Positions 462 to 5,305 of a stretch of 5,305 bases of DNA are shown here, in pieces. The notes beneath the pieces were generated by a model. It saw only the letters and a program-made list of their open reading frames with translations. It had not been told where the DNA came from and made no database searches. Positions within the stretch are counted from its first letter, which is position 1. Each line of letters begins with the position of its first letter. Source of the DNA: Rhodoferax sp. GTDB taxonomy: Bacteria; Pseudomonadota; Gammaproteobacteria; Burkholderiales; Burkholderiaceae. The translations under genes and the position numbers were made by a program. The stretch spans positions 1-5,305 of the forward strand of contig JAIFMT010000238.1 of NCBI GenBank assembly GCA_020048295.1, in the 5' to 3' direction.

Positions 462-971
462 ATGAAACAACTCGCATACATCGCCTTCGCCCTGATCAGT
501 TTGCTGCCGCTGGTGGCAGCCGCACAGTGGTCGTGGATTGACAAAGATGGCCGTAAAGTGTTCAGCGACCGTGCGCCGCCAGCCAACGTGCCAGAAAAAG
601 ACATTCGCAAACGCCCGGGGGCAACCGGCGACAACACGCTGGCGGCCCAAGTGCCCGCCGCAGTAGCCTCCGCCCTGCCCGGCCAACCTGCTGCCAGCGC
701 GCCCAAGCTGTCGGGCCTTGACAAGGAGCTTGCCGAAAAGAAGAAAAAGGCCGAGCAACTCGAAGCCGACAAACGCCGCGCCGAAGAGGCCAAACAAGCC
801 CAAGCCAAAGCAGAAAACTGCACGCGCGCCAAATCAGCCAAGGCTACGCTGGATTCGGGCATCCGCATTGGGCGCATCAACGCCAAGGGTGAACGTGAAG
901 TGATGGATGACGCAGCCCGCGCGGCAGAGGTACAACGCCTTCAGGGCATCATCGAGTCCGACTGCAAATAA
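462..971 (+). CDS. Exported DUF4124-domain protein with coiled coil
   Basis: This 169-residue protein starts MKQLAYIAFALISLLPLVAA, a typical signal peptide with likely cleavage after the AAA at 19-21. The mature part opens QWSWIDKDGRKVFSDRAPP, the hallmark of DUF4124: a W-x-W-x-D-x-x-G-x-x-x-[FY]-[ST]-D stretch found at the N-terminus of many betaproteobacterial periplasmic proteins. An Ala/Pro-rich linker (about 52-82) leads to a Lys/Glu/Ala-rich segment (84-118) that should form a coiled coil. A C-terminal part follows with cysteines at 120 and 168 that could pair in the periplasm. The frame is open upstream to 186, but the start at 462 is preferred because it places the signal peptide at the N-terminus. 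No strong ribosome binding site is seen. Its end faces rnfH across a 21-base gap. The function of the family is unknown. Confidence 0.85.
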   Translation: MKQLAYIAFALISLLPLVAAAQWSWIDKDGRKVFSDRAPPANVPEKDIRKRPGATGDNTLAAQVPAAVASALPGQPAASAPKLSGLDKELAEKKKKAEQLEADKRRAEEAKQAQAKAENCTRAKSAKATLDSGIRIGRINAKGEREVMDDAARAAEVQRLQGIIESDCK

Positions 972-992: not shown

Positions 993-1340
993 TCAGTAGC
1001 CGGCTTTGGCCCCGGCGCGCTTTTTGGCAAACAAACCGGCAGCGCGCGCACCCTGGCTGACAAAGCGCTCACGCCGCGCCACTTTGGGATCGACCCGCAA
1101 CGACCGATAAATCTCCACCCGGTCCTGGTCACGCAGCGGCTGACGCAGCTCAGTCAGACGACCCCAGATGCCCACCAGCGTATCGGTACTGTCGATTTCA
1201 GGAAATTTTTCGAGCCAGCCACTCAGGCGCAGGGCTTGCAGCACATCGCACGGAGCGCTGAGTTCAAGCGTGACCTGATGCACCTGACGCGCTGCGGGCG
1301 AATACACCAGCCTCACCTGGTAGTCTGGCTCATTCACCAT
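993..1340 (-). CDS. rnfH: RnfH family ubiquitin-like-fold protein
   Basis: This 115-residue protein (MVNEPDYQVRLVYSPAARQV at the start) matches the RnfH/UPF0125 family: a beta-grasp fold with LVYSPAxRQ, a central LEKFPEID, a VGIWGRLTEL strand and the signature DRVEIYRSLRVDPKVARRER near the end. The family is usually encoded directly after ratA, as here. Its role is not settled despite the name, which comes from the Rnf electron-transport locus of Rhodobacter. The ATG at 1340-1338 overlaps the original ratA stop (1332-1330) by 11 bases, and an AGGCAGG sequence sits about 3 bases before it; the adjacent GTG at 1337 would have better spacing. Because of the frame change in ratA, the same frame is also open upstream to 1739, so RnfH might additionally be made as the tail of a 248-residue fusion. 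RnfH itself looks complete, with a Lys/Arg/Ala-rich tail. Confidence 0.88.
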   Translation of the reverse strand: MVNEPDYQVRLVYSPAARQVHQVTLELSAPCDVLQALRLSGWLEKFPEIDSTDTLVGIWGRLTELRQPLRDQDRVEIYRSLRVDPKVARRERFVSQGARAAGLFAKKRAGAKAGY

Positions 1341-1739
1341 AAACCTGCCTGGCACGTTTGACAAAAGCGTCAACCATGCTGCCGGCGATTTTGTCAAACA
1401 CCGGGCTGCATAGGTCAGCGCCAGTTCGACCTTGCAGGCGCGCTGCTCGCTGCCAAGCGTCAAAAAATTCCATTCGCCTTCAAGTTTGGAAAATGGGCCA
1501 TCGATCAGGTTGATGATCACTTGCTGGTCAACAATGTGTGCGTTGCGGGTGGTGAAGGTCTGGTGGATGCCGCTAAAGGCAATGCCGATTTCAGCGATCA
1601 TGCCGTTTTCTTCATGGCTGACCACCCTGGCGCGGTCGCACCACGGCAAAAATTGGGGGTAATGGTCAACATCGACCACCAGCCGGTACATCTCGGCCGG
1701 GCTGTACCAGATTAAAACGGACTTTTTGACAGTTTTCAT
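1330..1739 (-). pseudogene. ratA: RatA (START/COQ10-like) gene with an internal deletion and frameshift
   Basis: The first 110 codons encode a typical RatA: KSVLIWYSPAEMYRLVVDVD, YPQFLPWC, FSGIHQTFTTRN and DGPFSKLEGEWNF, the SRPBCC/START fold of the COQ10 family. E. coli RatA was described as a toxin that blocks 70S ribosome assembly; eukaryotic relatives bind coenzyme Q. After LALTY (codon 110, 1412-1410) the frame breaks. The expected ending, SPVFDKIAGSMVDAF then VKRARQVYGE and stop, is present but in another frame (1407-1330). Against the remembered family (E. coli reads FEFTNKLIELAFGRVF at the same place) about ten residues plus one base are missing, near 1407/1408. A repaired gene would encode about 146 residues, the normal family length. 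As it stands, translation continues out of frame for 22 residues and joins rnfH. The missing piece starts the C-terminal helix, which packs over the lipid pocket in this fold, so function is probably lost. No Shine-Dalgarno sequence is visible before the ATG at 1739. Confidence 0.82.
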
Positions 1740-1809: not shown

Positions 1810-2283
1810 ATGGCCAAGAAACCAGACACCGCTGCCCGCATTGCCGACAACAAAAAAGCCGCTTTCAATTATTTTTTTGAGGAGCGGTTTGAAGCTGGCA
1901 TTGTGCTCGAAGGCTGGGAGGTCAAATCGCTGCGCGAAGGCAAGGTGCAGCTGACCGACGGCTATGTGGTGATCCGCAATGGCGAGCTGTTCATCATTGG
2001 CCTGCAAATCAACCCGCTGGGCACGGCCTCCACCCACATCAGCCCGGACAAACAGCGCACCAAAAAGCTGCTGATGCACAAAGAAGAAATCAAGCGGCTG
2101 ATTGGCAAGGTAGAGCAAAAGGGCTACACCTTGGTGCCGCTCAACCTGCACTGGAAAAATGGCAAGGTGAAATGCGAAATTGCCTTGGCCAAAGGCAAGG
2201 CAGAACACGACAAGCGCGACACCATCAAAGACCGCGAAGGCAAGCGCGAGGTCGAGCGGGCCATGAAATCGCGCCAGCGCTAA
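1810..2283 (+). CDS. smpB: SsrA-binding protein SmpB
   Basis: This is a complete 157-residue SmpB, the usual family length. SmpB binds tmRNA (SsrA) and delivers it to stalled ribosomes, where trans-translation tags the unfinished peptide for degradation. Visible family features are [13 protein letters not shown] near the start, [21 protein letters not shown] with the conserved E-V-K-S-L-R, the [13 protein letters not shown] strand, [11 protein letters not shown], and a basic C-terminal tail [20 protein letters not shown] that enters the ribosomal A site and mRNA channel. The ATG at 1810 gives the expected N-terminus ([20 protein letters not shown]). No clear ribosome binding site precedes it. 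It is divergent from ratA, an arrangement common in proteobacteria, and is followed by a hairpin repeat facing the response-regulator gene. Confidence 0.97.
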
Positions 2284-2348: not shown

Positions 2349-2996
2349 TTATATAGAAACCAGGCCTGACCGCATGGCGTAGCGTACCAACCCGGCCACC
2401 TCGTGGATGTCAAGCTGGCGCATCAGCTGGCTGCGGTGGGTGTCCACCGTTTTCACCGAAAGGTCCAGACGACGCGCAATCTCTTTGGTGCTTTGGCCTT
2501 CGGCAATCAGTTGCAGCACCTCGCGCTGGCGTGGTGACAACGCATCGCCGGGTTGCACATCACCGCGCAAGCGCTGCACATAGTCATTCACCACGCCTTT
2601 GGAAACCGCCGGACTCAGGTAGGTTTCTCCGCGCAGCACGGCGTTGAGCGCCAGCTCCAACTCCAGTGGTGCGGCATCTTTAAGCAAATAGGCTACCGCG
2701 CCGTTACGCAGCGCCTGGCGCACATATTCTTCGTTCTGATGCATTGACAAGATCAGCACCCGGATGTCTGGCCAGCGCTTGAGCAGGCGGGCGGTGGTTT
2801 CAATGCCATTGAGACCGGGCATAGCGATGTCCATCAGCACCAGTTGTGGTTGCAGCCTGTCGGCCAGGTCCAGCAACGCCTGGCCGTTGCCGGCCTCCCC
2901 CACCACTTCGAAGCCGGCAATCGACTCCATCAGCTTGCACAAGCCGGCGCGCACCAGCGTGTGGTCGTCGGCCAGCAGCACGCGTACCGGGCTCAT
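2349..2996 (-). CDS. NarL/FixJ-family response regulator
   Basis: This 215-residue protein has an N-terminal receiver domain (about 3-120) and a LuxR-type helix-turn-helix (about 152-210). Receiver residues are the acidic pair D10-D11, phospho-acceptor D56 in LVLMDIAMPG, S84 in LILSMH and K106 in AYLLKD. The output domain shows LSPRQREVLQLIAEG, then KEIARRLDLSVKTVDTHRSQ, the classic recognition-helix pattern, so it should bind DNA and control transcription. The start at 2996 is chosen because its ATG overlaps the kinase stop in an ATGA arrangement and has an AGGAG at 3005-3009, 8 bases upstream. A start 10 codons earlier is open but lies within the kinase and lacks this support. Its partner is the kinase directly upstream. 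Target genes cannot be told from the sequence. Confidence 0.93.
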   Translation of the reverse strand: MSPVRVLLADDHTLVRAGLCKLMESIAGFEVVGEAGNGQALLDLADRLQPQLVLMDIAMPGLNGIETTARLLKRWPDIRVLILSMHQNEEYVRQALRNGAVAYLLKDAAPLELELALNAVLRGETYLSPAVSKGVVNDYVQRLRGDVQPGDALSPRQREVLQLIAEGQSTKEIARRLDLSVKTVDTHRSQLMRQLDIHEVAGLVRYAMRSGLVSI

Positions 2997-4072
2997 ACCA
3001 CCGGCTCCTGCGACAACCATGGGCACTTGAAGTGCACCGTGCTGCCACGTCCGGGTGCCGAGTCGATGTCAAGCTGTCCCCCCACCAGCGTGGCGCGCTC
3101 TTGCATGCCCAGCACGCCCAGGCTGCCACCGGCAATCGCACGCTCGGTCATGGCCGCCAAATCAAAGCCCTGGCCATCGTCACTGACACTCAGGTGCAGC
3201 TCACCGTCCTCGCGGCTCAGCCGGATGGTGACCTCACTGGCGAGTGCATGGCGCGCGATATTGGTCAGCGCCTCTTGCACGATGCGAAAACACACCGTTT
3301 CGATGTCGCTGGCGACCCGCCCGCCAGTGTCCTGGTACTGAAAACTGACGGTAAAACCACTGCGTTGCGCCGCCTGATCAGACAACCACTGCAAAGCCGG
3401 CACCAAACCCAGGTCGTCCAGCATGGACGGGCGCAAACCGGTCGCCAGGTTGCGCACCTGCTGCAAGGTGTCTTCAACAATGCGAATGCTCTCCAGATTC
3501 AGGTTGGTGGGCACCTGCCCTTTGAAGCGCTCACTGAGCTGCAGGTTGATCTTGATGGCCGTCAGTGACTGGCCCAGCTCATCGTGCAGTTCGATGGCAA
3601 TGCGTCGGCGCTCCTGCTCTTGCGCCAGCAACACCCGCCTGGACAGCGCCTTGAGCTGGCGTGTGGTGTTTTGCAGGCGGGCCTCGGCCTGGTGCTTGTA
3701 AAGCGCCATGGCCAGCACAGTGCGCAGCTCACGCTCTGAAAAGGGTTTGAGGATGTAGCCAAACGGCTCGGTCAGCTTGGCGCGCGCCAGCACATCGTCG
3801 GCAGTAAAGGCGGTCAAAAAAACCACCGGCAGGGCAAACTGGTTGCGAATCAGCTGCGCTGCGGTGATGCCGTCCATGCTACCGGCGAGCTGGATGTCCA
3901 TCAGCACCAGGTCGGGGCGCAGCACAGCGGCCAAATCCACCGCTTGCTCGCCGCGGTCAACGCAGCCTACCGGGTGGTAGCCCAGCTCAATGAGCTGCTG
4001 CTCAATGTCACGCGCCACCACCAGCTCGTCTTCGACAACGAGAACCTTGGGCTTGGACACAGAAGACAACAT
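2993..4072 (-). CDS. Receiver-HisKA_3-HATPase histidine kinase (soluble, no sensor domain)
   Basis: This 359-residue protein begins with a receiver domain (about 8-125: E14-D15, phospho-acceptor D59 in LVLMDIQLAG, T88 in FLTAF, K109 in ILKPF). A coiled-coil-like linker follows (about 126-155), then a NarX-type dimerisation domain with the phospho-accepting H163 in RRRIAIELHDELGQSL. Last comes an ATPase domain with the N box QEALTNIARHA (N271), G1 DDGQGF (298-303) and a GSLGVLGMQERA G2 region. There is no membrane segment, PAS or GAF domain, so its input is probably phosphate delivered to D59 by another kinase. It would then phosphorylate the NarL-type regulator whose start overlaps its stop by 4 bases. 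The ATG at 4072 is preferred over an in-frame TTG at 4108, because the receiver fold begins 8 residues after it; a weak GGAAA lies upstream. The sequence gives no clue to the signal. Confidence 0.93.
   Translation of the reverse strand: MLSSVSKPKVLVVEDELVVARDIEQQLIELGYHPVGCVDRGEQAVDLAAVLRPDLVLMDIQLAGSMDGITAAQLIRNQFALPVVFLTAFTADDVLARAKLTEPFGYILKPFSERELRTVLAMALYKHQAEARLQNTTRQLKALSRRVLLAQEQERRRIAIELHDELGQSLTAIKINLQLSERFKGQVPTNLNLESIRIVEDTLQQVRNLATGLRPSMLDDLGLVPALQWLSDQAAQRSGFTVSFQYQDTGGRVASDIETVCFRIVQEALTNIARHALASEVTIRLSREDGELHLSVSDDGQGFDLAAMTERAIAGGSLGVLGMQERATLVGGQLDIDSAPGRGSTVHFKCPWLSQEPVV
3005..3009 (-). promoter_or_regulatory. Ribosome binding site of the response regulator
   Basis: On the minus strand this reads AGGAG, 8 bases before the ATG at 2996 and inside the last codons of the kinase gene. 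Together with the ATGA overlap it fixes the start and implies coupled translation of kinase and regulator. Confidence 0.8.
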
Positions 4073-4277
4073 GCGGTATTTCCAGACAAAAAATATGAGC
4101 CACGGCAAGCTGGCAGGCTACCCGCCCGTCGTTGCCGTTGAACGACCCCGGCATGCGGCACCGTTGAGCCGATAAAGTGTAGCGGCTGTGTGATGGAAGT
4201 CATGGTTTTCGCCTAACATTCAACCACCACAGAGCCACAACATAGCGTGATATTTGTCAATTTTTATTGATCCAATC

Positions 4278-4286
4278 TGCTATAGA
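4278..4286 (+). promoter_or_regulatory. Possible extended -10 promoter for the Aer-like gene
   Basis: TGCTATAGA matches an extended -10 (TGn followed by TATAGA, one base from TATAAT except for the fifth position). The nearest -35-like sequence, TTGTCA at 4254-4259, is 21 bases away, which is too far for normal spacing, so the extended -10 would have to carry recognition. An AT-rich stretch (4248-4300) surrounds it. Transcription would start about 40 bases before the ATG at 4335. The rest of 4073-4334 holds no gene; it must also contain the kinase promoter, which I could not pick out. Confidence 0.4.
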
Positions 4287-4322
4287 TGGCTTTTTTTGTC
4301 GCAAACTCGGGTGCATGATGAT

Positions 4323-4326
4323 CAGG
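4323..4326 (+). promoter_or_regulatory. Ribosome binding site of the Aer-like gene
   Basis: AGGA lies 8 bases before the ATG at 4335 and supports that start, which also gives a protein aligning to E. coli Aer from its first residues. Confidence 0.7.
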
Positions 4327-4334
4327 ACCTTTTC

Positions 4335-5305
4335 ATGCTGAACAACCAACCGGTCACGCAAAACGAATACATCCTGCGCGACAACCAATCACCCGTCTCG
4401 CGCACCGACACCACCGGTCGTATCACCTACGTTAACGCCGATTTTATTGAGGCCAGCGGCTTTACCGAAGACGAGCTGCTGGATCACAACCACAACGTGG
4501 TGCGCCACCCATCCATGCCGCCACAGGCCTTTGCCGACATGTGGCGGGACCTGGCCAACGGCAGGTCCTGGACCGGTATGGTGAAAAACCGGCGCAAAAA
4601 TGGCGACTACTACTGGGTTGTGGCCAATGTGTCGCCGGTTTGGGAGGGCGGCAAGCTCATCGGTTACGCATCGGTGCGCATGAAGCCAGAGCGCGACGCG
4701 ATTCCACCGATTGAGGCCATTTACCAACGCTTTCGTGAAGACCGTGCCGGTGGCATGCGCATTCACCACGGTCGGGTGGTGCGCACCGGCATCGCTGGCT
4801 GGCTCAGCGCCTGGCTGAAACCCAACATCAGCCGCCGCCTGAGTTTGCTGATTGCGCTGGCCGCGCTCATGGTGCTCAGCGTGGGCTGGCTGGGGTGGTT
4901 TGGCATGAGCCAGGCCAATCAGAAAATCGGCATGGTCTATCGCGAAGGCGCACACGCCGTGATGTACCTCGACACCATTGCCCGCTTGCAGTTACGCAAC
5001 CAGTTGGCACTGTCCACGGCGCTGGCGACCGACGAAGTGGATTTCAAACAAGTCGAAAAAGCGCAGGAACTGGCAGCACAAATCGAGGGTGACATCGTCA
5101 AAATCAACCAAGCCTGGAAAGATTACCGGGCTATTGGCCACACGGCCGATGAGATCAAAGTACAAGCCGACTTTGAGAAGCTGTGGCAGCAATATGTCAA
5201 CGAAGGACTCAAACCCGCCGTGGCAGCCTTGCGCAAAGGTGATTTTGCTCTGGTGGCACGCACCTACCGCTACACCGCTGTTCGGCATTTTGAAGCACTT
5301 AACCT
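4335..5305 (+). CDS. Aer-like PAS chemoreceptor with periplasmic helical-bundle domain (3' end cut)
   Basis: The frame is open for 323 codons to the window edge. Residues 1-120 match the PAS domain of E. coli Aer, which binds FAD and senses redox state and oxygen for energy taxis. Equivalent residues fall at the same numbers: N34 (ITYVN), R57-H58 (NVVRHP), W70 (FADMW) and N85 (VKNRRKNGDYYW). E. coli D60 is a serine here. A linker with RIHHGRVVRTG (142-152) resembles the Aer F1 region. One membrane segment follows (about 167-189, LSLLIALAALMVLSVGWLGW), then about 135 residues of amphipathic helices (GMVYREGAHAVMYLDTIARL onward, with QLRNQLALS). These resemble a four-helix-bundle ligand-binding domain such as 4HB_MCP/TarH. 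The second membrane segment, HAMP and methyl-accepting signalling domain are expected beyond the edge. E. coli Aer lacks this periplasmic part, so the protein could read both internal redox state and an external ligand. Confidence 0.87.
   Translation, partial: MLNNQPVTQNEYILRDNQSPVSRTDTTGRITYVNADFIEASGFTEDELLDHNHNVVRHPSMPPQAFADMWRDLANGRSWTGMVKNRRKNGDYYWVVANVSPVWEGGKLIGYASVRMKPERDAIPPIEAIYQRFREDRAGGMRIHHGRVVRTGIAGWLSAWLKPNISRRLSLLIALAALMVLSVGWLGWFGMSQANQKIGMVYREGAHAVMYLDTIARLQLRNQLALSTALATDEVDFKQVEKAQELAAQIEGDIVKINQAWKDYRAIGHTADEIKVQADFEKLWQQYVNEGLKPAVAALRKGDFALVARTYRYTAVRHFEALN

Follow-up and report, generated by a model that had tools for sequence, protein, structure and literature searches.

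On the minus strand of the window (the whole stretch of DNA analysed here, 5,305 nucleotides from a Rhodoferax sp. contig), the genes ratA and rnfH are read as one continuous open frame. The question raised by this locus is what brought the two genes together, and whether the joined product is a selected fusion, a by-product of the loss of ratA or an artefact. The initial annotation had described a single frame of 248 residues, in which a complete RnfH follows the first part of RatA while the end of RatA survives out of frame. This description is confirmed by an open reading frame running from 1739 to 993 whose product carries both expected domains, namely Polyketide_cyc (PF03364) at residues 12-111 (90.5 bits for a cut-off of 23.4, profile positions 3-100 of 126) and Ub-RnfH (PF03658) at residues 141-223 (85.8 bits for a cut-off of 23.7). 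The latter profile is matched from position 2 to 83 of 83 and rnfH keeps its own ATG at 1340; the last 25 codons of ratA and its stop (1407-1330) are intact in the other frame. The NCBIfam RatA equivalog model (NF007999), scored on the window protein alone, yields 106 bits for a cut-off of 258. Two boundaries had nevertheless to be moved: the RatA part comprises residues 1-110 rather than 1-111 and is followed by 23 rather than 22 out-of-frame residues (111-133), and the loss lies at about 1409/1408 instead of about 1407/1408. The features are listed in Table 1.

Table 1. Features of the ratA-rnfH region and its flanking genes in the window
Feature	Position	Strand	Observation
smpB, divergent neighbour, intact	1810..2283	plus	PF01668, E 5.2e-60, profile 1-142 of 143
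DUF4124 gene, convergent with rnfH, open	462..971	plus	same neighbour in relative L018
Fused ORF: RatA 1-110, out-of-frame stretch, RnfH	993..1739	minus	248 codons, no internal stop
ratA codons 1-110, Coq10/START-like sheet part	1410..1739	minus	PF03364, E 1.3e-25; decay not visible; invariant positions kept
Junction without 28 bases	1408..1409	minus	compared with 30 of 32 aligned relatives
ratA last 25 codons and stop	1330..1407	minus	original frame intact; out of frame with the ratA start
23 out-of-frame residues, fusion 111-133	1341..1409	minus	ratA C-terminal DNA in the rnfH frame
rnfH, 115 codons, own ATG at 1340	993..1340	minus	complete; 11-base overlap with the old ratA end (1340-1330)
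Possible ribosome-binding site preceding the rnfH ATG	1344..1352	minus	anti-Shine-Dalgarno duplex energy -5.9 kcal/mol

The window ratA was compared with its relatives, which are 77 loci from one genome-contig scan, by record title mostly from Rhodoferax and other Comamonadaceae or Burkholderiales. The best of them is about 76% identical in DNA across the ratA region, and 32 of the 77 were taken into the alignment with the window that gave the size of the missing block. This block amounts to 28 bases relative to 30 of these 32 loci and to 31 bases relative to the other two (L039 and L077), which possess one additional codon at this site. The earlier estimate of a loss of 3n+1 bases is thus upheld, but its best fit of 31 has to be replaced by 28, one codon fewer. 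The join falls after G1409 and before C1408. No exact direct repeat longer than one base was seen by eye at the ends of the block in 17 relatives, and a deletion between direct repeats was rejected on this ground. A 44-base pattern spanning the junction had no match in viral contigs, a result that says little about bacteria.

Among the relatives, ratA was found by tblastn in 76 of the 77 loci. The protein is full-length (143-152 residues) in all 75 loci that can be read to the ratA stop, the copy of L033 being ended by a contig edge and therefore left outside this count. The two genes are adjacent in 74 loci, where the frame of rnfH is offset from that of ratA by +1 in 62 cases, by 0 in six and by 2 in six. 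In locus L040 (from 1335), a full-length ratA occurs with no rnfH match; downstream lies an open reading frame which by eye we take to be DUF4124-like, and rnfH has possibly been lost there separately.

The arrangement of the two genes explains why such a loss can join them. As already proposed in the initial annotation, rnfH overlaps the ratA stop in precisely the frame that results from the deletion, its ATG lying inside the last 11 bases of the window ratA (1340-1330) in the +1 frame. When 28 bases were removed in silico at the same place from the relatives' copies, an open fusion was obtained in 44 of the 62 loci with an offset of 1 (the other 18 yielding none) and in none of the 12 loci with other offsets. 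Losses of 1-60 bases with this same end point fused the genes in 886 of 1240 cases when their length was 3n+1 and in 0 of 2480 otherwise, as frame arithmetic requires, and 28-base losses placed more widely in the same 62 loci did so in 4218 of 5518. A 3n+1 loss therefore commonly fuses the two genes because rnfH starts within the end of ratA in the +1 frame. An open fusion is the common outcome for one third of the possible loss lengths; it is in itself no evidence for selection, and no selection is needed to account for it.

We propose that a recent deletion in this lineage would have taken out 28 of the 30 bases that make up ratA codons 111-120 and thrown the last 25 codons out of frame, so that RatA would lose its single long C-terminal helix and most likely its function, while the 3n+1 length of the loss would remove the barrier between the overlapping genes and leave a passively fused frame. 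The explanation that we consider reasonably probable is that ratA has recently lost its function and that the fusion is a mere by-product.

RatA, labelled as a toxin in databases, is a bacterial quinone chaperone of the Coq10-like kind. The available portion of one report describes it as the bacterial homologue of Coq10 and puts its toxicity in Escherichia coli down to overexpression of a gene with a misannotated start (PMC11988751), and according to the accessible part of another, the START domain of Coq10 proteins forms a tunnel in which quinone is bound (PMC11541779). The AlphaFold model of an intact relative (P0002) has a mean pLDDT of 94.1 and a single helix covering residues 115-143 (29 residues) with block means of 89-95. 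That of the fusion reaches a mean of 76.1 and a pTM of 0.49; the sheet and the RnfH fold are retained, but in place of the long RatA helix only a weak short helix is predicted at residues 119-127. The block means are 57, 50 and 42 over residues 111-140, 42-57 over residues 111-150 and 42-60 over residues 111-160. The confidence obtained for the sheet is aided by the alignment of intact relatives and is no proof of stability. As modelled, the fusion is without the long C-terminal helix that closes the RatA/Coq10 START fold and, because this helix is lost, the function of RatA should most likely be abolished.

The conservation of both pieces of ratA bears on the age of the event. An alignment of 37 RatA sequences contains 61 invariant columns, only one of which lies in the lost block, and the remaining 60 are all kept in the two pieces of the window gene. 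In comparison with nine relatives, the last 25 codons, read in their old frame, show 7-12 silent and 1-5 amino-acid-changing codon differences, and the first 110 codons show 32-46 silent and 15-19 changing ones. Since decay is not visible on either side of the junction, the deletion is either recent or not real. If real, it would be recent, as these codon comparisons support and as the initial annotation had suggested. The conservation of the C-terminal codons in the old frame would also suit the continued production of RatA through a ribosomal frameshift at the junction, an idea that we find hardly credible: about nine codons around the helix start would remain absent from such a protein, and a recent event accounts for the conservation of the tail.

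The main rival to a recent loss, namely that the 28 bases are missing through an artefact of assembly, consensus or strain mixture while the organism itself has an intact ratA, deserves serious attention, even though we give it less than an even chance. With a full-length RatA in each of the 75 readable relatives, loss of ratA must be rare, and the prior probability of an artefact is accordingly higher. A search of a protein set (best 120 of 3402 matches) and one with the RnfH part of the window protein (all 64 matches) bear on the same point. Four entries carrying both RatA and RnfH domains (P0001, P0068, P0098 and P0153) are each represented by one sequence on one contig, as errors would be. 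By reading, the frame jumps within the RatA part of P0001, P0068 and P0153, and P0098 has lost a large internal segment; a further singleton, P0147, begins with a RatA-like piece that is unscored by Pfam. Among the best 120 of 3402 matches, the nearest RatA is 88% identical and the window protein itself was not found. An artefact fits less well with the fact that the other genes lying wholly inside the window (smpB, the response regulator, the histidine kinase and the DUF4124 gene) are all open. Moreover, no repeat that could guide a false join is seen by eye at the junction, and homopolymer slippage does not account for 28 lost bases; a loss of this size without end repeat would be untypical of a read error.

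One would also wonder whether the fused protein could be of benefit to the cell, in which case it might be expected elsewhere. A search of the genus matched 83 of 89 genomes, three of which have both genes in one frame, each with an intervening stop among the matches listed. The family search, which shares at least five genomes with the former, matched 389 of 399 genomes, and the 20 in which one frame spans both genes among the matches listed all have at least one stop. Among the matches listed for these 89 genus and 399 family genomes, where weak distant matches could be missed, we found neither a stop-free frame running from RatA through RnfH nor an established fusion family, that is, one stop-free fusion shared by at least two related genomes. 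The open-access literature searched likewise returned no report of a natural RatA-RnfH fusion. The two genes share one frame with a stop between them in loci L001-L006 as well as in the 23 genomes of both searches, these sets partly overlapping. The loss of one stop could fuse such a pair, a stop-free case being absent among the matches listed.

A selected functional protein tying the ubiquitin-like RnfH to the RatA sheet would be in keeping with the occurrence of ratA and rnfH together in 74 of 77 loci, with a frame that is open throughout and with two Pfam domains above their cut-offs. We nonetheless regard it as very unlikely, as the RatA helix is lost and the model has low confidence over residues 111-160, as the 23 same-frame genomes (three from the genus and 20 from the family) keep their stops, and as there is no sister sequence in which the linker is conserved. 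A bolder version, in which a newborn two-domain protein would carry RnfH on the RatA sheet, with the linker replacing the helix and RnfH being tethered to or regulated by quinone status, appears to us more improbable still. Of the three outcomes that the initial annotation had left open, decay or artefact is thus favoured and a selected fusion is set low.

When the protein set was searched with RnfH (best 120 of 4575 matches), the best full-length identity was 85% (P0185), and a piece of 83 residues (P0199) was 95% identical to the window RnfH. The three nearest full-length relatives among the matches listed are free-standing RnfH proteins, 114-115 residues long, and this suggests that ratA is unfused in their genomes. 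Eleven relatives were tried for an rnfH start and ten gave one, with anti-Shine-Dalgarno energies of +0.5 to -4.4 kcal/mol, as compared with -5.9 in the window. Because the window retains the rnfH start and a possible ribosome-binding site, the cell may still make free RnfH; RnfH would in any case be produced either from its own start or as the C-terminal part of the fused protein.

In the surroundings of the fused frame, the order of smpB (divergent), ratA, rnfH and the convergent DUF4124 gene is shared with the relative L018. In that locus, the neighbour beside smpB differs from that of the window, and the open reading frame after the DUF4124-like gene is, by eye, presumably guaB. Beyond smpB, the window (2349-5303) contains a response regulator, a receiver-plus-histidine-kinase gene and a PAS/TarH receptor-like gene running off the end. 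Between smpB and the response regulator, an inverted-repeat-like unit was noticed by eye at 2306-2345; a strict pattern for its core ATAAGCGCTAGA has a single match among the 77 loci, in L033. Upstream of about 440, the window had no blastn match in the best 12 relative loci, a stray open frame at 201-470 had no Pfam match at E values up to 1, and PADLOC gave no match. In the accessible part of a survey of smpB neighbourhoods, a ratA/rnfH unit is named as one of the genes' most frequent companions next to smpB (PMC4131195).

Altogether, this locus shows how a small deletion in overlapping neighbours yields a fused open reading frame without any selection. A further suggestion is that the RatA-RnfH fusions recorded in protein sets may reflect damaged genes or errors and not genuine two-domain proteins. 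If the deletion is real, a Rhodoferax-like bacterium has lost its Coq10-like ratA, which is a rare event in nature.

A parallel can be drawn with the known members of the two families. The window protein resembles RatA/PasT (PF03364; NF007999; solved relative 1t17) over residues 1-110, in which the family-invariant residues are kept, but it is without the C-terminal helix of the modelled intact relative, and the old-frame tail is unread from the ratA start. With RnfH/RatB (PF03658; solved relatives 2hj1 and 8ahx chain H) the likeness extends over the full profile, except that the RnfH of the window is preceded in frame by 133 codons whereas known RnfH is a free protein of about 115 residues. 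Finally, deletion-born gene fusions have been described in which, as here, a deletion joins parts of two genes into one open reading frame (PMC12803068). In the portion of that report available to us, the deletions are adaptive and fuse distant gene fragments, whereas the window presents, in a single sequence, a 28-base loss that joins two adjacent genes with an existing overlap.
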